Part shown: in pieces, positions 3,852 through 60,581 of the stretch | Numbering within the stretch: the first letter of the stretch is position 1 | Layout: every line of letters starts with the position of its first letter | Notes under the pieces: model-generated | The model's database searches: none | What the model was told of the DNA's origin: nothing | Seen by the model: only the letters and a program-made list of their open reading frames with translations | Translations under genes and position numbers: made by a program | Assembly (NCBI RefSeq): GCF_015500095.1 | Contig: NZ_CP062983.1 | Coordinates: forward strand, 2,542,001 to 2,606,000 | DNA length: 64,000 nucleotides | Origin: Phototrophicus methaneseepsis | GTDB lineage: Bacteria; Chloroflexota; Anaerolineae; Aggregatilineales; Phototrophicaceae | Direction: 5' to 3'

Positions 3852-4975
3852 GTCTTTGCTCCAGCAATAGACCAATCTTGAGCGAGCATAGCATAAATAC
3901 GCGCGTCGAGGTGGGTATTACGGGCAAGGGTGGCCTGCCTCTGAACACCTTCTAATGTATAGCCCAGGCGTTGCGGTATCGCGGCGCTTTTTTCATTGCC
4001 TACGGCACACATGATCTCCACACGATTAAGCCCCAGGTTAACCAGTGCAAACTGCGTTAGGCAATGGACGACGCGCGTCATGATGCCGCTGCCCGTGACG
4101 TGTTGAGAAAGCCAGTAGCCAATCTCGGTCTTCTTCTGGTTGAAGTCCCAATAATGATATTCAACCGCGCCGACGAGCTCGCCTTTATACCAGATGCCCG
4201 CTGCAAAGCCGTTTTCCTGGGCATAGTTATTGAGCGTGCGCTCAATGAAAGCGGCTGTATCCTGGGCGGATTGTGTATCATCGACCCAGGGTAGCCATTG
4301 CCGCAGATGATCCCTGTTTTGGTCAACCAGATCGTAGAGCGCTGCCGTATGATGGCGTTCAAATAGGCGCAGCTCAATTTCTGCATCAACGGGCCACTTA
4401 ATCGCGGCATCTTCCAGGAAGGGCGTCCATTCGTCACGCAGCATGCTGTAGTACTGCAAGTCGATGATTGTGCGGTTATCGTCTTGATCGCTGATGTAAC
4501 CGCTCTGGCGGCCTGTCATCTCGTATTGATAGCCCGCTCGCTTAGCGACGTTCTGACTGGGAATATTTTCTGTCGCTGCGCGGATGAAGATGCGATTCAT
4601 CCCTAATGTGCGATAGCTAAAATCCGTCACCGCTTTGACAGCTCTGGTCATAATGCCCTTGCCTGTAAAGGGCTGCCCTAGCCAGTAGCCAATTTCTGCC
4701 GTATGCGCGACCTTATTCCGCTGATGTAGGCCGATGCCGCCTGCTAAACTCCCGTCGTATAGGATCGCAAAGCCATAATCCTGGCCTGCTGCGAGGCTCT
4801 GGCGCATCATGCGGACGAATTGCTGAGAATGAGCCAGCTCTGTCGAGGTCCAGGCCCAGGGTAACCATGTGCCGATATAGGCGCGGTTCGATGCAACCAG
4901 GGCAGTTTGCTGCTTGCTATGCAAATTGCTCAGAAGTTGCAGTTCGATATGCTCATCAACTTGGATGCCGAACAT
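3848..4975 (-). CDS. Tandem GNAT N-acetyltransferase (two RimJ/RimL-type domains)
   Basis: The 375-residue protein consists of two complete GNAT domains of the RimJ/RimL type, which transfer acetyl from acetyl-CoA to an amine, often a protein N-terminus. Domain 1 covers about residues 8-180 and domain 2 about 190-370. Both halves share the hallmark sequence EIGYWL followed by the acetyl-CoA loop (TGKGIMTR in the first, TGSGIMTR in the second), and each has an RxGY segment (KRAGYQYE, QRLGYTLE). RimL-type enzymes usually have a single domain of about 180 residues, so this is an internal duplication. The gene is coupled by ATGA to the DUF952 gene. The substrate is unknown. Confidence 0.87.
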   Translation of the reverse strand: MFGIQVDEHIELQLLSNLHSKQQTALVASNRAYIGTWLPWAWTSTELAHSQQFVRMMRQSLAAGQDYGFAILYDGSLAGGIGLHQRNKVAHTAEIGYWLGQPFTGKGIMTRAVKAVTDFSYRTLGMNRIFIRAATENIPSQNVAKRAGYQYEMTGRQSGYISDQDDNRTIIDLQYYSMLRDEWTPFLEDAAIKWPVDAEIELRLFERHHTAALYDLVDQNRDHLRQWLPWVDDTQSAQDTAAFIERTLNNYAQENGFAAGIWYKGELVGAVEYHYWDFNQKKTEIGYWLSQHVTGSGIMTRVVHCLTQFALVNLGLNRVEIMCAVGNEKSAAIPQRLGYTLEGVQRQATLARNTHLDARIYAMLAQDWSIAGAKT

Positions 4976-5029
4976 AAGTCACTCATTCTTTTGATTGGGT
5001 TCAACAGGCATTGCGATGAACTTGGTATT

Positions 5030-7273
5030 TTAGCGCTGCCAGATGCGGATATTCTGCCTCATTGTATCCATTTCTTGCGGGAGAATATGCCATAACGTCG
5101 CGCTAAGATGGTCCAGATCGCTTGTTATTGTGCCATTATGGGCCAAAAGGGAGAAATTTGCTAGCTGTGAATGCAGCGAGTTCGTGGGATCGTACTGGGG
5201 GATACGCAGCCGCTTAAGGATGCCTGCCTGTGCAAAGCTCTTGCCGCCTGCCTGGGAATGTGTAACCAGGGCGAAGTTAAAGGGTAGGCTGTTGAGGCAG
5301 GCAGCCAGATAGTGGGCTTCATCTTCGTTATCCAGGCCGACAAAGGGATGCATAGCCTGGTTGGTCATGACAGGATGGCCTTCATTTGGGCCGACGACCG
5401 CTGCTTGCATCGACTGGGCGCCTATGCCTTGCCAGACGACTTTGTAGGGAGCGAAAGTATAATGCCCGACATCGAACATGGTATAAAATGGCGCGCTTTG
5501 TTTAAAGTAGCGCTGGTAAGCGGCGCGCTTGATAAGCGTCTCTTTGAATTGAGCGAGATAAGCGTAGGTCAGGGGATAGTGAGCTTGAAGCCAATCTTCG
5601 TCGTAACCTCGCCGTGTTTGCGGGTCCTGGACCATGAGAATAGTGGTTGTCGGATAGGCTTGCCAACGGGTAACGTCGCTGCCACGCAGCAGCGGATAGA
5701 CGAGGGCACTTTCGATAGTTGCCTGCACTTGTTTAATGGACTTTTTGCCCGTGTCTGCCTGGTTGCGTATGGTCAGTGTTTCGCCATGATGAGCGAGCAC
5801 CTCCAACCAGTAAACGCCGTTTGCGCCGCCTGTATAGACCCCCGCGTGCGCTTCGTAGTCTGATGGGCCGAGTAGCTTGTGTAGACCACTAAGCGCCTGC
5901 TGAGGGGCGCTAATCCATGGGCTGCCTGTGTCGCTTGTGTCGATAGGTTGAGCGTGCATAGGATGGCGCGTCGTGGCCTTTAGAATCGTGCTGAGGCGGC
6001 TGTCCTCAAATTGTCGACGTCTGCCGGAGACATGCCACAGTGTATAGGATGCCATCGCATCAATCATGGGTTGATGTGAAAGGCTTTTATTCGCATAGAG
6101 CACGATTGTATCTAGCTTGCTGCCACCATAAGTGGTTAATCGGCTGACGTCATCAATGTGCGTGACCGTTAGCGGACCATGCTCAGCGAGGTAGCTGCGA
6201 AAGCCCGCCCCGGCCCCACCAGATTTGAGGGTGCTGCGGCTGAGCAGGAAGGCCAGCGTGCCGCCATCAGCCAGATAGCGATCCGCGACGACGCATGTAA
6301 ACAGCGTTGCCAGGTCTTTTTTACCTTTACCAAGGATGCTATCCATACCTGTATGGGAGAAAAGGCCATAAGACACCCACAAAGGGCGTGTTTGTTCTCG
6401 GTATTGTGTGGAAAGATGCTGCCAGTTCACCCAGGGTGGGTTACCGACGACAAAATCGAAAGTTGGTAGGTTAAGGTCATTGAACAGTGTATCAGCGTGG
6501 TAGATAGGCAGGTTCGTTTCTGGGGGCCATGTTGGCAGGCTGAGGATAAGCGCTGTTTTTGCGGTTAAGACGGCGATTTCGCTGTTATCAATCCCCGCTA
6601 TGCGCGCGAGGATATCGTCTGCATGGCCCATTTGTATGGCGCGTTGTATGGCTGCTGCCAGAAAGCTCCCACTACCGCACGCTGGGTCCAGCAGGGTGGT
6701 CGTGCCATCATAGCCGACCTGCTCTAAGACATGCTGCACCAGCCAATCTGGCGTGTAGTAAGCGCCCTGGGCATGTCGCACGGGGCGCGGTACAAGCTCA
6801 TGATACAGTCCCTTAAGCAGATCGCCCTGCGGGGCCTGTAAATCCATCTCCGGGTAGGTTGTTATATCAATCGCAGATAGAGCGGGTTGCATCCATTGTG
6901 GCGGGGCTACATTGAGCAGGCCATGCTGCCTGAAGAGATTGCCGTTACAAACGTCCATCCACTGCCAGGAGGTACCCGTTCGCTGGTGGATGGCTTCCGC
7001 AGCCAGCCAGAGGGCGACACTGGCGATATAAAGGTGCAGGCTGTTGAACAGCCTGCCCGGTTCTGCGTTGGGAATATGATACTGGCTACCGATTTGTGCC
7101 CAGTCTACATCGGAAGATGCGGCGGGGTGTGGTAAAGATGGGTCGCTCAGGGCTGCATAGAGCCCTGGGATTGCTGCTTGCGCGGGTTCCGATTGGCTGC
7201 CAAAAGCGAAGCGGATTTGCCGCGCGGTGACGAGCTTACTCATATAGGCGTGGCTGCTTCTGTAGCCATACAT
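5030..7273 (-). CDS. Class I DNA N6-adenine methyltransferase, TaqI/Eco57I-like
   Basis: This 747-residue protein should methylate adenine in a specific DNA site using S-adenosylmethionine. Motif X-like GAYYTP lies at 170-175, motif I DPACGSGSF at 196-204, and the catalytic motif IV NPPW at 278-281. The C-terminal 300 residues, with TGGANGVYWLE and PLLRGSDVTRW, resemble the target-recognition region of TaqI/Eco57I-type methylases. No nuclease motif or neighbouring restriction gene was recognised; the flanking genes are a GNAT and SufE. It may therefore be an orphan regulatory or epigenetic methylase, or a Type IIG enzyme whose nuclease part is not recognisable. The ATG at 7273 has no clear Shine-Dalgarno; an alternative start is M11 at 7243. 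Confidence 0.85.
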   Translation of the reverse strand: MYGYRSSHAYMSKLVTARQIRFAFGSQSEPAQAAIPGLYAALSDPSLPHPAASSDVDWAQIGSQYHIPNAEPGRLFNSLHLYIASVALWLAAEAIHQRTGTSWQWMDVCNGNLFRQHGLLNVAPPQWMQPALSAIDITTYPEMDLQAPQGDLLKGLYHELVPRPVRHAQGAYYTPDWLVQHVLEQVGYDGTTTLLDPACGSGSFLAAAIQRAIQMGHADDILARIAGIDNSEIAVLTAKTALILSLPTWPPETNLPIYHADTLFNDLNLPTFDFVVGNPPWVNWQHLSTQYREQTRPLWVSYGLFSHTGMDSILGKGKKDLATLFTCVVADRYLADGGTLAFLLSRSTLKSGGAGAGFRSYLAEHGPLTVTHIDDVSRLTTYGGSKLDTIVLYANKSLSHQPMIDAMASYTLWHVSGRRRQFEDSRLSTILKATTRHPMHAQPIDTSDTGSPWISAPQQALSGLHKLLGPSDYEAHAGVYTGGANGVYWLEVLAHHGETLTIRNQADTGKKSIKQVQATIESALVYPLLRGSDVTRWQAYPTTTILMVQDPQTRRGYDEDWLQAHYPLTYAYLAQFKETLIKRAAYQRYFKQSAPFYTMFDVGHYTFAPYKVVWQGIGAQSMQAAVVGPNEGHPVMTNQAMHPFVGLDNEDEAHYLAACLNSLPFNFALVTHSQAGGKSFAQAGILKRLRIPQYDPTNSLHSQLANFSLLAHNGTITSDLDHLSATLWHILPQEMDTMRQNIRIWQR

Positions 7274-52490: not shown

Positions 52491-52775
52491 ATGAATCCAT
52501 CACCTAAGTTGACTGGCCGGGCGATGCAGTCCGTGCTGAGACATGCTGGTATTCCAGTCCAAAAAGTAACGCGTAAACGGCAGTCGGGCTATTACGTCGC
52601 AGATTTTTATACGCCCGAATTGAACAAAGCTGTGCCATCCTCACACGTCTGGGAGCGTTGGCTTGTCTCATCCTTCCCGGACCAATTTGAAGTCATTGAT
52701 CGCCATGATACGGTTGCTACATGGCGGCAGGGTAAACCGACAATTTCCGCTTCTGTGACGTTCCGCTTACGTTAA
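52491..52775 (+). CDS. Small hypothetical protein (94 aa) under a regulated promoter
   Basis: A 94-residue protein not recognised, with no signal peptide. It starts MNPSPKLTGR and contains a central GYYVADFYTPEL and a basic stretch KVTRKRQSG. The predicted transcript start lies about 45 bases upstream, with an AGAAG-type weak ribosome-binding site. The promoter palindrome makes this a candidate for an inducible gene, but no damage-repair motif is visible. Confidence 0.6.
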   Translation: MNPSPKLTGRAMQSVLRHAGIPVQKVTRKRQSGYYVADFYTPELNKAVPSSHVWERWLVSSFPDQFEVIDRHDTVATWRQGKPTISASVTFRLR

Positions 52776-54568: not shown

Positions 54569-54601
54569 AAAACGAGGTCGCTGTTGTGCGACCTCGTTTT
54601 T
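54569..54601. terminator. Bidirectional terminator between amylase and PHP genes
   Basis: A 13-base perfect stem (54569-54581 with 54588-54600) with A and T tracts on either side. Confidence 0.92.
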
Positions 54602-54623: not shown

Positions 54624-56399
54624 TCAGTTATTGTTGTTATCTTCGTCATCGGGTGCCATGAACATTTCCCAGGGACCTGTCATGCCGCTGTCGGTGACGC
54701 CATAGTAAATGCGGATTGTGCCATTATCGCGCTGGACGAGATCATAGCGTGTCTGGCCCGCTTTCTGGTAACGTCGCCAGAGGCCAATGTTGTTATACCA
54801 CTGTACCTTGGCTTCTTTAACCGGGTTGCCTTCGTACTGCCGGATGGCATAATGCCACAGACGTCGCGCACTATCCCGCGTCACGTTTTTGACGATGTTC
54901 CCATTACGCAGGTCGCGGATTGTATAGTAACGCGTATCATTGCGATTCTCGACGGAGGCGATTTCTGCGCCGGCACGAGGTGGCGTAACCTCATCTTCGC
55001 TGATGGCAACTTCTGCCGGCAGCGGTTCTTCAGCGAGCTTCTCCGCAGGCACTGGCATCCCATTATCAATTTCGATAGGCGCTTCTGTGCGCATAAAGAC
55101 CAGCCCCTGACGCACCAGATTCACGATTTCATCGCGTACAGCGAGGCTTGTTTCGGCCTCATCACGCACGTAAATCTGGTTATCATTGATGGCATAGGGG
55201 CGATCTTCACCATAAGGGACCAGTACGCGAATAATGCTCTTGCCCTGCGTTTCCTGGGTATCGATATCGACATCAAGCGAGGGCGTCAGGACGCGGCTGA
55301 TTTCTTTTTGTAGCGTCCGGGTGGCATCATTGATATCTTTAATGCCCTCAATGGGCTTGTTTTTGTCTTTGCTCAAACCAATGTAGATGGTCCCCCCATT
55401 GGTATTGGCAAAGGCACACACATCCGCGATGACATTATTCAGCTTGCCGCCTTTACGCTCCATGCCTTCATGGAAAGATTGCACAAGGCTGGGGCCTTCG
55501 TCGCGGGCTGCCAGGATGTAATCGTAGGGCTTCTTATCCGGGTTGTAGGGGCGTGTCCGGCTGAAATCGGTGCTGGCGAATAAATCTTTGATCGCCTCAA
55601 AGGAGCGATCTCGCAGCAGCATCTCCGTGACGCGCTCGCCAATGCCATAACGCGTGTTTTTGCCTTCTAAGAAGGTATCCAGGCTGTGTGCATCCGAGCC
55701 CTGGATTAAATGCATCCGGCGCGGATACTCCGGCTTGGTGCCATCAAAGAAGCGACGTGTCGAAGCACGTCCCCGACGATTGAGGTCCGTCAGCTCCAGG
55801 GCGTGCAAATAGCGGTCCTGCGTATAGGCGATACGGGTTTGCCCGCCAAAGTTAAGGCCCCGCATCATCACGCCATGAGCGCTGTTAATATGTGCCGCGA
55901 TGGCGATCCCGCCTGCTTCTGCAATCAGTCGGTAAGCTTCAAGCACATCTGCTGTGGAGCCTGCCGCTGCGTCACCGCGTTCGAGCACATCCGGGGGCAC
56001 GTTCAAGCTCAGCAAGACGTGCTCAATATAACGGATGGAGGTCGACGGTGAAAAAATACCCAGGATGTGAAAGCCAAATGTCGCGGAAAATTCAAAACCG
56101 GGCAGAACGAGGACCTTATCTAAAAGCCGACGATACTCTGCTAAAAGTCGCAGTTCGTCGGCCATAGCGCGCCCGGTTTGTTCCAGGAATTGCAGGCGTT
56201 CAATTTCATTCATCATGGCGACGTAGCCACCGACGGTGTTATGGTCGGTAAAGGCGATAATATCGACACCACGACGTTCTGCACGCCTGAGAATATCAAT
56301 ATAAGGGGCATCTGCATCTTTATAGTCCATACTGGCGGGCGTATGGACGTGTAAATCGACACGGTACCACTGCATGCGTGTTGCGTTTTTACTTGCCAC
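54624..56399 (-). CDS. PHP phosphoesterase fused to an AlbA_2 (Schlafen-type) domain
   Basis: A 591-residue fusion. The N-terminal PHP domain (about 11-245) has DLHVHT with H17 and H19, FTDHNT with D52 and H53, AAHIN, and GSDAH, the metal-binding set of active PHP phosphoesterases. Residues about 300-425 match an AlbA_2 putative nucleic-acid-binding domain (VCAFANTNGGTIYIGLSKD). The last 110 residues are a less conserved region ending in an acidic DDEDNNNN tail. GTG 56399 has GGGA upstream. A receiver protein lies upstream on the same strand. A role in nucleic-acid processing or stress is plausible but unproven. Confidence 0.88.
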   Translation of the reverse strand: MASKNATRMQWYRVDLHVHTPASMDYKDADAPYIDILRRAERRGVDIIAFTDHNTVGGYVAMMNEIERLQFLEQTGRAMADELRLLAEYRRLLDKVLVLPGFEFSATFGFHILGIFSPSTSIRYIEHVLLSLNVPPDVLERGDAAAGSTADVLEAYRLIAEAGGIAIAAHINSAHGVMMRGLNFGGQTRIAYTQDRYLHALELTDLNRRGRASTRRFFDGTKPEYPRRMHLIQGSDAHSLDTFLEGKNTRYGIGERVTEMLLRDRSFEAIKDLFASTDFSRTRPYNPDKKPYDYILAARDEGPSLVQSFHEGMERKGGKLNNVIADVCAFANTNGGTIYIGLSKDKNKPIEGIKDINDATRTLQKEISRVLTPSLDVDIDTQETQGKSIIRVLVPYGEDRPYAINDNQIYVRDEAETSLAVRDEIVNLVRQGLVFMRTEAPIEIDNGMPVPAEKLAEEPLPAEVAISEDEVTPPRAGAEIASVENRNDTRYYTIRDLRNGNIVKNVTRDSARRLWHYAIRQYEGNPVKEAKVQWYNNIGLWRRYQKAGQTRYDLVQRDNGTIRIYYGVTDSGMTGPWEMFMAPDDEDNNNN

Positions 56400-56431: not shown

Positions 56432-56788
56432 TTATTCACCAATATATTGCCTGAAAAGCTCCGGGAGCTCTCCGGGTTCAAATGGCTTTACTAGAAAGGC
56501 ATCTGCGCCTGCTGCCATCACCTCGTCAGAGACGTCCATCCCGGACGTAATAATAACCGGGGTGTGGGCGATAGTCGGGTGTGCGCGTAAAGCCTTTAAG
56601 ACGGTCACACCATCTGTATCTGCCAGATGATAATCCATCAAAATAGCGTCTGGTGTTCTCTGTTCCGCCGTGTTGACGACTTCTGTACCCTTCGCTACGA
56701 CAATAACGTCATACCCATCTAATTCCAACAGGGTTTGCAGTAGCGAGACGGTCGTGTGATCATCATCCACGATCATGATCTTGCTCAT
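56432..56788 (-). CDS. CheY-like receiver protein
   Basis: A 118-residue receiver-only response regulator with acidic cluster VDDD, phospho-acceptor D52 in ILMDYHLADTDG, and FLVKPFEPG. ATG 56788 is favoured because AAGGA lies at a proper distance; an ATG at 56794 is too close to it. It lies 32 bases upstream of the PHP-AlbA_2 gene on the same strand and probably shares its transcript. No kinase is adjacent. Confidence 0.88.
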   Translation of the reverse strand: MSKIMIVDDDHTTVSLLQTLLELDGYDVIVVAKGTEVVNTAEQRTPDAILMDYHLADTDGVTVLKALRAHPTIAHTPVIITSGMDVSDEVMAAGADAFLVKPFEPGELPELFRQYIGE

Positions 56789-56807
56789 AGACATTCCTTA
56801 TTATAGT

Positions 56808-56834
56808 AAAGCCGATAGCAATACTATCGGCTTT
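56808..56834 (-). terminator. Hairpin after lon
   Basis: An 11-base perfect stem (56808-56818 with 56824-56834), loop CAATA. The minus-strand tail has only three T residues, so it may be a weak terminator. Confidence 0.65.
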
Positions 56835-56892
56835 GATTATAGGTGATTTTCGATAGCTTGACGACCCGCCCCGACACTTATTGTGGCGGGGA

Positions 56893-59361
56893 TTATGCAA
56901 CTGTCTGATCTAGCGCAACTTCAAACGCTTTATCGACATGATCGATCAGGACGAACGTCATCTGATCGCGGACTTCGTCCGGCAACTCTTCCAGGTCAGG
57001 TTCGTTTTTCTTCGGCAGGATGACGGTATCCACGCCGATGCGGTGTGCAGCCAACACTTTATCTTTGATGCCGCCTACAGGCAGAACCTGCCCGTTGAGG
57101 GTTAACTCGCCGGTCATGGCGACATTATGCCGCGTTGGGCGGTGTGTTAGCAAGGAAGCCAGGGCCACAGCCATGGTGACGCCAGCAGATGGGCCATCTT
57201 TTGGCGTAGCACCTGCCGGGACGTGAAGGTGGAGTTCATTCTCTTTGAAGAACTGATTCTCCACGTTGAAATCCGCGGCTTTGGACCGAATATAGCTGAG
57301 GGCGATACGGGCGCTCTCCTGCATGACGTCGCCAAGTTGGCCTGTATACTGGAAGGCTTTATCACCCGGCATTGATGTCGCCTCGATAAAGAGGACATCA
57401 CCACCGACGGGCGTCCACGCAAGACCCGTCGCCACACCTGGGAGATCCGTCCGATCTTCCAGTTCTGTACGATAGCCAAAGCGGGGTTTGCCCAACAGGT
57501 CCCGGACTTCTTCCGGGTCGATCTCCACGGTGTCATTGGTGCCTTCCGCAATGCGGGTGACGACCTTACGAGCCGCACGACCAATTTCACGTTCCAGGTT
57601 ACGGACGCCAGCTTCGCGTGTGAAGTCACGGATAATCGTCAGCAGGGCCTCATCGTCGAAGTCAATTTCTTCTTCGCGCAGGCCATTTTCACGGATCTGA
57701 CGGGGCACGAGATACTGGCTGGCGATAGCGAGCTTTTCTTGCTCGGTATAGCCGCTGAGCTGGATAAGCTCCATACGATCAAGCAGCGGCCCAGGGATTG
57801 TATCCAGCGAGTTGGCTGTCGTGATGAAGAAGACTTCGCTCAGGTCGAAAGGCACGTCCAGGTAGGTATCACGGAATTCCGCGTTCTGTTCCGGGTCGAG
57901 CAATTCCAACAAGGCAGAAGCCGGGTCACCACGGAAGTCACGACCCAGTTTGTCGACTTCATCCAGCATGATCAGCGGATTGCGTGATTCTGCACGGCGC
58001 AGTGTCTGCACAATACGTCCAGGCATCGCACCAATATATGTACGGCGGAAACCGCGAATTTCAGCTTCATCACGCACGCCACCCAGGCTCAGCCGGATGA
58101 ACTTGCGACCCATTGCACGAGCAATGCTAGCACCAAGAGACGTTTTACCAACCCCTGGCGGGCCAACGAAGCAGAGAATGGCGCCCTGGCGTTCGCGCCG
58201 GACCTGGCTCAGGGGCGTTTCTTCCAATTCATCGGAGCGCTCCGAGCGCAATTTACGCACAGCCAGGAATTCCAGAATGCGCTCTTTGATGTCCTTCAGG
58301 CCATAGTGGTCTTCATTGAGCACCTGACGTGCATGGCTAATATCGAGATTGTCGTCTGTTCGCTTGTTCCACGGCATGTTCACCAACCAATCCAGGTAGG
58401 TGCGGATTACGCCGTACTCCGCGGAGGCAACAGAAAGCTTACTCAGGCGGTCGAGTTCGCGCTCGGCTTCGCCACGAGCTTCTTCGCTCATGCCTGCTTC
58501 TTCAATGGCTTTGCGGAATTGGCCGACTTCTTCTGTCTGGTCATCACCTTCAGCGAGTTCACGTTGAATCGCCTTGAGCTGTTCGCGTAGATAATATTCG
58601 CGTTGGCTCTTTTCCATCTCAGATTGGGCTTCGCTCTGGATTTTACGGCCCAGTTCCAGCACTTCCACTTCTTTATTGAGCAGCTCGAGCAGGTAACGTA
58701 GTTTTTCCTGCGTGCTTTCCAGCTCCAGTAGTTCCTGTGCTTTTTCCAGGTCGATACGAATATAGGTCGCAACGGAATAGGCGAGCTGCAGCGGGTCATC
58801 TGTGGCGAGCGCTGTCGTTACCAGTTCCGGCGGGATGCTGGGCATGAGGTCCGCCAGGTGACGGAACTGATCCATGACATTGCGTTCTAATGCTTCAACT
58901 TCCAGCTCGCTCTCGACGGATTCCGGAATTTCGCTGATGGAAGCCTTGAGATATGGTTCTTCTGAGGTGTATTCGTTGATACGAATCCGCTTGAGGCCCT
59001 GTACCAGCAGGCGAATGGTGCCATCTGGGGCGCGGAATAAGCGGTGAATGGCTGCTAATGTACCGACACGGTAAATATCATCTGGTCCTGGTGTTTCCAT
59101 ATCAGGATCAAACGCTGTGACCAGGCCAACCAGACGATTTCCCTCGATGACATCGTCAACGAGCTTCAGGCTGCGCTGCTGGCCAACAGTCAGCGGAATC
59201 GCTGTATGCGGATAAACCACCAGTCCACGTAGGGGCAGAATAGGGACTTCTGCGGGGAACTCGTTGGTATCGCGTGCTTTGTCTTCTTCAGTAATGGCAT
59301 GGGGCGAGCCGTTGCCAGAAGACATTAAATCCGCGATTAAACGTTCGAGATCGTTACTCAT
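56893..59361 (-). CDS. lon: ATP-dependent protease Lon
   Basis: An 822-residue Lon protease for degrading misfolded and regulatory proteins. The N-terminal substrate-binding (LAN) domain spans roughly 35-235, followed by the AAA+ module (Walker A GPPGVGKT) and the serine-lysine proteolytic domain: S725 in DGPSAG and K768 in [12 protein letters not shown], spaced 43 residues apart as in E. coli Lon. ATG 59361 is preferred over a GTG at 59391. No other protease genes are near. Confidence 0.96.
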
Positions 59362-59822
59362 ATTTATTGTATCCTTAACCAGTGGTCTCACTGTTTGTGT
59401 AGCATGTCTGGGGTCAGGGGACTTACCAGACGTGGATCATTTCACGTGTGTATAAAACATGTGTGTATGACGGCGAGACGAACAGACTTCTTTAAAATGC
59501 ATTGCTTGTGACGCGTACATCTGCTGAATCGCCATTGTGATAGATTGTTTGCCAGTTTGATAGACAATACCCTGATGTGTAGTTTAGCGTGTCCAAATAA
59601 AAAGTATGTAAGATTCTCATGTCTCTTGTGCGCTTCTAACAAAGCGCTGACGATTGGTGCCTTCGCTCACTCGATTAATATGAGTTTTGGGTCGTATGCT
59701 GGCTTGCCAGAGAGCCGCCTTCACCCTGGATTCATGAAACTGCAACAGGAATCTGCAATTAGAAGATGCATCTAAGAATCGTGCTTAAGCACTTCACACG
59801 AAGGCCGTCTCTCAAACGTATG
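59362..59822. other. 461-base intergenic region upstream of lon
   Basis: No credible protein gene. A direct repeat of GTGTGTAT (59446-59453 and 59461-59468) lies about 85-105 bases upstream of the lon start, possibly an activator or stress-regulator site. Confidence 0.4.
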
Positions 59823-60581
59823 CTAGAACTCGTAAATGTCGAAGTCTTTGCACAGCGTGATGGGGCCATCGTAGCGTTGAGCGGCTTCATCTACCAATGG
59901 CGCCGGGTCAACATTCCACACCGGGTAATGGATGAGGTAGAGCGACTTTGACCCTGATTCCTGAGCGATTTGGGCCGCCTGGGTTGCTGTACTATGACCG
60001 GGAGGCGCACCTGCTGCTTCATGGATGAGCATATCGACGCCATCGGCGATTTTATAGACGGCTTCGCACGGTTCTGTATCACAACTATAGCCCAGGACGC
60101 GCCCATTCCGTTTATTCGTGATGCGTAAGCCGATAGTCGGCACAAAATGCTTGACGGGATAGGCGACCATATAAAAATCATCGTTATCCAGGATGACGAC
60201 CTCATCTCGCTCCCTCAGCCGATGAAACGTAATCGGGAAGAAATTAGGCCAGTCCTGCCAGTTATAGGCTTCCATTGTGTCTTCAATGCGGTTGATGCAA
60301 TGGTGGAGGCCATGGACGCGCATACTGGTCTGGCGGCCTATCAACCACATGTGCATGAGCATATTCGGTACGCCACCCACATGATCAGGGTGGAAGTGCG
60401 TGAGGATGACATCTTGCATCGCGTCGTCATCTATGCCCAGGTATTTGAGCTTACCAAGCGGGTTAGAGCCTGCATCGACGAGAATCGGATGCCCATCATC
60501 GCCAATCAGTAGAAAGTGCGTATAGTCATGTGTGGCATCATTGACGGCGGCTGCCGAACCAAGTATGACGATTTTAGCCAT
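59823..60581 (-). CDS. MBL-fold hydrolase, RNase Z-like
   Basis: A 252-residue metallo-beta-lactamase-fold protein. The zinc motif THFHPDHVGG (H62, H64, D66, H67) is intact. The later HEAAGAPPGHSTATQAAQIA resembles the RNase Z/ElaC group, but the RNase Z exosite arm is not evident. It may be a phosphodiesterase of unknown substrate. It stands alone between intergenic gaps. Confidence 0.85.
   Translation of the reverse strand: MAKIVILGSAAAVNDATHDYTHFLLIGDDGHPILVDAGSNPLGKLKYLGIDDDAMQDVILTHFHPDHVGGVPNMLMHMWLIGRQTSMRVHGLHHCINRIEDTMEAYNWQDWPNFFPITFHRLRERDEVVILDNDDFYMVAYPVKHFVPTIGLRITNKRNGRVLGYSCDTEPCEAVYKIADGVDMLIHEAAGAPPGHSTATQAAQIAQESGSKSLYLIHYPVWNVDPAPLVDEAAQRYDGPITLCKDFDIYEF

Follow-up and report, generated by a model that had tools for sequence, protein, structure and literature searches.

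What would a protein do that joins a PHP phosphoesterase domain to a Schlafen-type AlbA_2 domain, and why does its gene so often lie behind that of the Lon protease? The question is raised by a locus of Phototrophicus methaneseepsis (Chloroflexota; Anaerolineae), which we analyzed within a stretch of 64,000 nucleotides (contig NZ_CP062983.1, positions 2,542,001 to 2,606,000), hereafter called the window.

Architecture of the protein

The ORF lies at window positions 54624-56399 on the minus strand, begins with GTG and encodes 591 amino acids. The first-pass annotation, made from the sequence alone, had proposed a PHP/AlbA_2 fusion here with an uncharacterised C-terminal part. The ORF and the fusion were confirmed at exactly these coordinates, and both Pfam matches exceeded their cut-offs: PHP (PF02811) at aa 15-70, with 30.2 bits against 26.4, and SLFN_AlbA_2 (PF04326) at aa 319-417, with 72.6 bits against 25.3, beginning at position 19 of the 118 positions of the profile. 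Behind the PHP domain come a single AlbA_2 domain, a disordered linker and a C-terminal domain that has no Pfam family; the Pfam scan of the window protein returned no C-terminal match. The features are as follows.

54624..56399, minus strand: PHP-AlbA_2-C-terminal-domain protein, 591 aa (ORF, Pfam, aligned relatives)
55530..56372, minus strand: PHP domain, TrlF/Ppl-like, nine conserved metal-ligand positions (aa 10-290)
55086..55508, minus strand: AlbA_2 domain without the Schlafen EFK-type glutamate (aa 298-438, bounds set by us)
54645..54992, minus strand: unnamed C-terminal domain (aa 470-585), two halves, each of three or four strands and a helix

The AlphaFold model of the protein had a mean pLDDT of 86.5 and a pTM of 0.63, with low confidence at aa 440-467; because of this pattern, we trusted the folds of the single parts over their relative placement.

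Distribution and gene tree

The window ORF is a real gene: matches at E ≤ 1e-20 occur in 257 of 396 class genomes, from 159 of 222 genera, with at least one match (in G361) confined to the C-terminal tail, and 39 relatives align with it at 37-83% identity. These relatives and the window formed a 40-row alignment, from which the divergent L072, L073 and L074 were left out. At E ≤ 1e-10, matches were found in 70 of 400 genomes drawn from the phylum, some of them weak and confined to the PHP part or the tail. A scan of genome contigs with the single protein returned three loci, all from Chloroflexota. The window's own family has the gene in 12 of 28 genomes, and 11 of the 16 misses belong to one genus (g230). 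A mobile element was considered and rejected, with no full copy in plasmid or phage records: 17 plasmid records matched, all in the PHP part and none covering more than 80% of the query, and no phage record matched.

Loci were collected around the first matches (43 loci, L034-L076) and around matches in class genomes (35 loci, mostly on long contigs). After removal of the duplicates L036 and L139 and of L072, the case with an NYN domain described below, the tree contained 76 rows including the window. Midpoint rooting separated 57 rows, with the window among them, from 19 others. The gene tree mostly tracks family labels, except that families f25 and f61 mix.

Conservation of the PHP domain

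Nine positions (H17, H19, D52, H53, E103, H111, H170, D236 and H238) were identical in all 40 aligned rows, and we take them to be the metal ligands known from the PHP superfamily (HxH, DH, E, H, H, DxH). The "active-looking" metal sites of the first-pass annotation thus held at nine of nine ligand positions. The same nine were invariant in a seven-row alignment that included one TrlF (Halapricum) and one Ppl (E. coli plasmid).

TrlF, Ppl and Spaf_1101, in which a PHP domain is fused to an AAA-like ATPase, share this domain with the window protein, and hhalign matched it to one TrlF with a probability of 99.3. The NCBIfam scores of the PHP part were 92.1 bits for TrlF (cut-off, 350), 78.3 for Ppl (cut-off, 1000) and 60.1 for Spaf_1101, all far below the cut-offs, and the PADLOC Ppl model scored 60.5 bits. 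The NCBIfam model for RNase RNM gave 24.2 bits against a cut-off of 375, and the equivalog score was not reached. Both the aligned TrlF and the aligned Ppl have a P-loop after the PHP domain, whereas the 591-aa window protein has no Walker A motif; the place of the ATPase is therefore occupied by AlbA_2 and a further, new domain. The window protein also differs from this group in being chromosomal in a large share of one class. Ppl is annotated as an anti-phage family. The one relevant TrlF paper found concerns a Photorhabdus temperature-restriction operon and does not contain the word "PHP" (PMC7554251).

Two relatives from one genus, L073 (G142, 4890-7106) and L074 (G385, 755-2476), have kept AlbA_2 and the tail, but most of their PHP ligands are gone. 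Each retains a single one of the nine positions in the alignment (H17 and D52, respectively) and has a histidine one residue off H170; since this histidine may be that ligand, we put the loss at seven or more of the nine. The long branch that bears both was flagged by the tree program. In these two proteins, binding alone may be enough.

The AlbA_2 domain

The assignment as Schlafen-type AlbA_2 was borne out by the Pfam score and by fold matches to DIP2311 (Z 12.5), SLFN14 (Z 10.6) and the tRNase domain of SAMD9 (Z 10.4). A profile built from A1 matched all 76 tree proteins, with A1 members matching by construction. In Schlafen proteins, the glutamate of the EFK motif is catalytic. The SLFN11 EFK glutamate aligns with S308 of the window protein, and the 40 rows contain no glutamate in this column (S10 V10 A8 I5 D3 G2 L2); we therefore took AlbA_2 as a binding part. 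The window protein shares the AlbA_2 fold with the Schlafen and SAMD9 RNases (Z about 10) but differs from them in the single AlbA_2 found here and in the absence of the EFK glutamate in 40 of 40 rows. AlbA_2 also occurs with HATPase_c_4, in COG2865-like proteins; all six that were scanned carry HATPase_c_4 and none has a Pfam PHP match. The window protein has neither a HATPase nor an HTH regulator part in Pfam (HATPase_c_4 without a match at E ≤ 0.1), which argues against its AlbA_2 region being only a generic transcription-factor module.

The C-terminal domain and its occurrence with NYN

The part that had been called uncharacterised proved to be a compact domain. Modelled alone, aa 470-585 reached a mean pLDDT of 94.6. 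No Pfam family was found for it among 51 members scanned (best E, 0.015), and the structural searches gave no convincing solved relative (Foldseek best E, 0.064; VIA-align best Z, 4.4 over 46 residues). Among known folds, chromodomain, polo box and PUR repeat each matched one half only, and PilT and SsgB matched more weakly; none was convincing. An AP2-like match in 3 of the 51 members (best E, 0.03) was not significant.

Of 400 genomes from the phylum, 63 had a match to the tail, as did 191 of 298 from the class. All 57 proteins on the window's side of the tree contain one full copy, and 18 of the 19 on the other side contain two, most with a half copy between them; the nineteenth (L074) is broken by a run of N. 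In four f109 genomes, a second gene (L224:943-3243, L217 and L219 among the loci) carries the repeated tail that characterizes the other side. The only one of these genes whose frame was read is again PHP/AlbA_2, with its PHP match just under the Pfam cut-off.

Among the frames read, the tail accompanies AlbA_2 and a PHP or decayed PHP domain, with G361 as the sole exception. In this genome (L072:4789-6318), the tail follows an NYN domain (PF01936, 112 bits). The window protein matches there in the tail only, and the PHP/AlbA_2 form, present in four relatives of the same family, was not found in G361. Two further ideas on this gene were dropped: a position at the locus of the PHP gene, as it has no synteny with the four family relatives, and a LOTUS-like middle part, which had no Pfam match.

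Gene neighborhood

The first-pass annotation had noted a receiver protein upstream of the gene and suggested that it might control the enzyme. The receiver gene lies directly upstream, with a gap of 32 bp, and is preceded by lon.

56432..56794, minus strand: stand-alone response-regulator receiver, conserved neighbor (Pfam, loci comparison)
56893..59391, minus strand: Lon protease, 832 aa, conserved upstream neighbor (Pfam, loci comparison)
56836..56864, minus strand: sigma-70-like promoter match, 10/12, between lon and the receiver gene (consensus match only)
56808..56834, minus strand: 12-pair hairpin between lon and the receiver gene
54569..54600, minus strand: terminator-like hairpin with T tail after the PHP/AlbA_2 gene (consensus match only)

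Of the 57 loci that group with the window in the tree, 31 encode Lon directly upstream on the same strand, 23 encode HSP20 before Lon (Lon and HSP20 together, 23) and 23 encode a receiver within 1.5 kb upstream, of which 16 have Lon as well and 7 do not; some loci end at contig ends, so these counts are lower bounds. On the other side, neither Lon nor a receiver was found at any of the 19 loci, indicating that the link is not needed for function. The receiver is thus a conserved neighbor on one side of the tree. Lon adjacency requires at least nine changes on the tree and the receiver six. Linked receivers scored 65-158 bits against the window's receiver, compared with 34-55 bits for other receivers at these loci, and D54 and K103, the phospho-Asp and Lys positions, were kept in 24 of 24 rows, one of which is a duplicate. 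Control of the PHP/AlbA_2 enzyme by the receiver is plausible from this arrangement.

The hairpin and the promoter-like match between lon and the receiver gene suggest, as the simplest reading, that the receiver and PHP/AlbA_2 genes of the window share a transcript separate from that of lon. The intergenic stretch between lon and the receiver gene had a fold z-score of -3.0. The region contains seven promoter-like matches against 2.8 expected in shuffles and two terminator-like matches against 2.9 expected, so single matches mean little.

Two other genes of the window were noted. A gene with a metallo-beta-lactamase fold lies upstream of lon (59823-60581), as such genes do in L034, L037 and L045, one of them confirmed by Pfam. 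A 94-aa ORF without a Pfam match (52491-52775) lies between the genes for an acyl-CoA dehydrogenase and an alpha-amylase.

Pairing of Lon with AlbA_2 genes across the order

Across 61 genomes from the order, the full set of 118 AlbA_2 rows was compared with the best 107 Lon rows (bits >230); an edge row at 219 bits and all weaker or partial Lon rows were left out. An AlbA_2 match lay downstream on the same strand for 66 of the best 107 Lon rows, at 1.1-2.1 kb in 45 cases and at 135-246 bp in 21. For the same 107 rows, no AlbA_2 match was found upstream within 6 kb and none on the opposite strand within 4 kb. The unlinked remainder comprised 41 of these Lon rows and 52 of the 118 AlbA_2 rows. 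Among the best 107 Lon rows, either pairing occurred in 48 of the 61 genomes and both in 18; as the genomes of the order are related, these counts are not independent events.

The 45 distant pairs were called PHP type by distance, and the contexts were read for seven of them (the window, L037 and L139-L143). The close pairing, a Lon gene followed by an AlbA_2 gene 135-246 bp downstream, was found in 21 of the 61 genomes and differs from PHP/AlbA_2: in all three of the 21 that were scanned with Pfam, the downstream protein contained AlbA_2 and HATPase_c_4. In the window's genome, an AlbA_2-HATPase_c_4 gene (G000:C1:2944029-2945144; L002, L159) follows a second Lon gene by 36 bp. Schlafen RNases with a minimal histidine-kinase-type part and a wHTH have been reported beside BREX loci (PMC12839542). 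This architecture resembles the AlbA_2-HATPase protein of the second Lon pairing, so a defence link may hold for that second type.

Candidate functions

The predicted model matched the PHP barrel of the enzymes compared with Z of 8.5-19.7. The best match was EndoQ (Z 19.7, 3.4 Å, 228 residues), with a second EndoQ entry at 19.4, followed by PsfC (16.9), TM0559 (16.5), 3e38 (16.1) and RNase AM (15.8); the PHP domains of PolIII scored about 11-14 and 2yb1, with AMP bound, 13.4. The matches are a mixture of nucleases and proteins of other or no known function. EndoQ acts on deaminated bases in DNA and cleaves 5' of them. RNase AM and Endonuclease Q, which have the PHP fold in common with the window protein, are not known to contain an AlbA_2 domain. 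RNase AM (YciV) is described as a three-metal PHP 5'-3' exoribonuclease (PMC9410882).

Three observations suggest a nuclease, namely the PHP positions, the top fold match and the NYN case. The last of these, like the AlbA_2 relatives, leans to RNA, and the Lon and HSP20 neighbors lean to a stress role. We therefore tentatively prefer to see the protein as a metal-dependent PHP phosphodiesterase that would cleave nucleic acid, most likely RNA, within the stress and protein-quality-control machinery of Chloroflexota; every functional step past the conservation of the ligands is one that we infer. The PHP domain, with its conserved ligands and predicted fold, would be the catalytic part, and the single AlbA_2 would join with the C-terminal domain in holding the substrate and selecting it. 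In many relatives, hsp20, lon, the receiver gene (where present) and the PHP/AlbA_2 gene form an array on one strand with the PHP/AlbA_2 gene last; because it closes this array, the protein is probably made together with Lon under heat or proteotoxic stress. The stand-alone receiver would be a phosphorylation-dependent partner, and Lon may limit the level of the enzyme. Against this reading, however, PsfC, TM0559 and 3e38, which stand between EndoQ and RNase AM in fold Z, are not known as nucleases or lack any known function, the NYN fusion is a single case at a locus without synteny to the four relatives, and the gene is present in only 12 of 28 genomes of the window's own family. The 19 loci that have neither Lon nor a receiver, the two relatives with a decayed PHP domain and the signs of a transcript separate from lon in the window also count against it.

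An unlikely alternative is a DNA repair endonuclease, whose PHP domain would nick damaged DNA as EndoQ does while AlbA_2 and the tail bind DNA, with the stress operon serving damage repair. When the PHP domain is compared over its full length, the two EndoQ entries are indeed its best structural matches, but Z differences among PHP enzymes do not settle the substrate, and the PolIII PHP domains also reach about 11-14. In addition, the NYN case leans to RNA, and no repair gene was found among ten scanned neighbor proteins.

Slightly less probable is a nucleic-acid-binding regulator that cuts no polymer and whose PHP domain would dephosphorylate or sense a small phosphorylated metabolite, for example pAp or a nucleotide. 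Small phosphates are the substrates of several PHP relatives. The match to AMP-bound 2yb1 is consistent with such a role, as are the relatives that have lost most PHP ligands and keep AlbA_2 and the tail, whereas the lack of an HTH or HATPase regulator domain, the nuclease as top fold match and the NYN case argue against it.

The least likely of these readings, a TrlF/Ppl-related effector of anti-phage defence or abortive infection in which AlbA_2 would be the sensor in place of the ATPase, is consistent with the TrlF/Ppl-like scores and ligands of the PHP domain, the patchy presence in the window's own family and the BREX-adjacent Schlafen RNases, but it fits poorly with matches in 257 of 396 class genomes, a tree that mostly tracks family labels, the lack of full copies among plasmid and phage records, and recurrent neighbors that are HSP20 and Lon, not defence genes. 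A defence setting among the neighbors, which the first-pass annotation had proposed to look for, did not emerge. The strongest neighbor is Lon, often with HSP20, and PADLOC, run on 14 window proteins including the PHP protein, showed no complete system, so a defence island was rejected. Its neighbor matches appear to reflect shared domains: Lon matched BrxL, DolB, IetA and TRIP13; the alpha-amylase matched C3a214 (243 bits); receivers matched SduA and PD-T4-6; and an ABC ATPase matched mad3, AriA and others. A defence role is not favored.

Returning to the preferred reading of a stress-linked nuclease, the pairings across the order might extend it to an undescribed Chloroflexota module, although we consider this wider proposal doubtful. 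Lon would be paired with AlbA_2 effectors, namely a PHP/AlbA_2 nuclease with a receiver switch and, with the second Lon, an AlbA_2-HATPase protein. The effector would be regulated through proteolysis by Lon or would come into play once Lon is overloaded, so that protein-folding stress would be linked to RNA decay or processing; the tail would be an RNA-recognition part that can also be mounted on an NYN nuclease.

Implications

Our literature search, which left most subscription journals and bioRxiv outside its scope, found no paper joining a PHP domain with AlbA_2 or Schlafen, and none joining Lon protease and AlbA_2. For PHP domain, Chloroflexi and Lon protease, no such system appeared in the titles or abstract beginnings among the matches listed. 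A protein with matches in 257 of 396 class genomes, a complete-looking PHP site, an unnamed domain and a recurrent link to Lon thus lacks a described function in the literature searched. If the Lon link is functional, stress proteolysis would be tied to nucleic-acid cleavage, and there would be a case of an AlbA_2 domain that binds the substrate for a PHP enzyme. How the domains divide the labor can be tested directly with the two decayed-PHP relatives and the NYN-bearing one.
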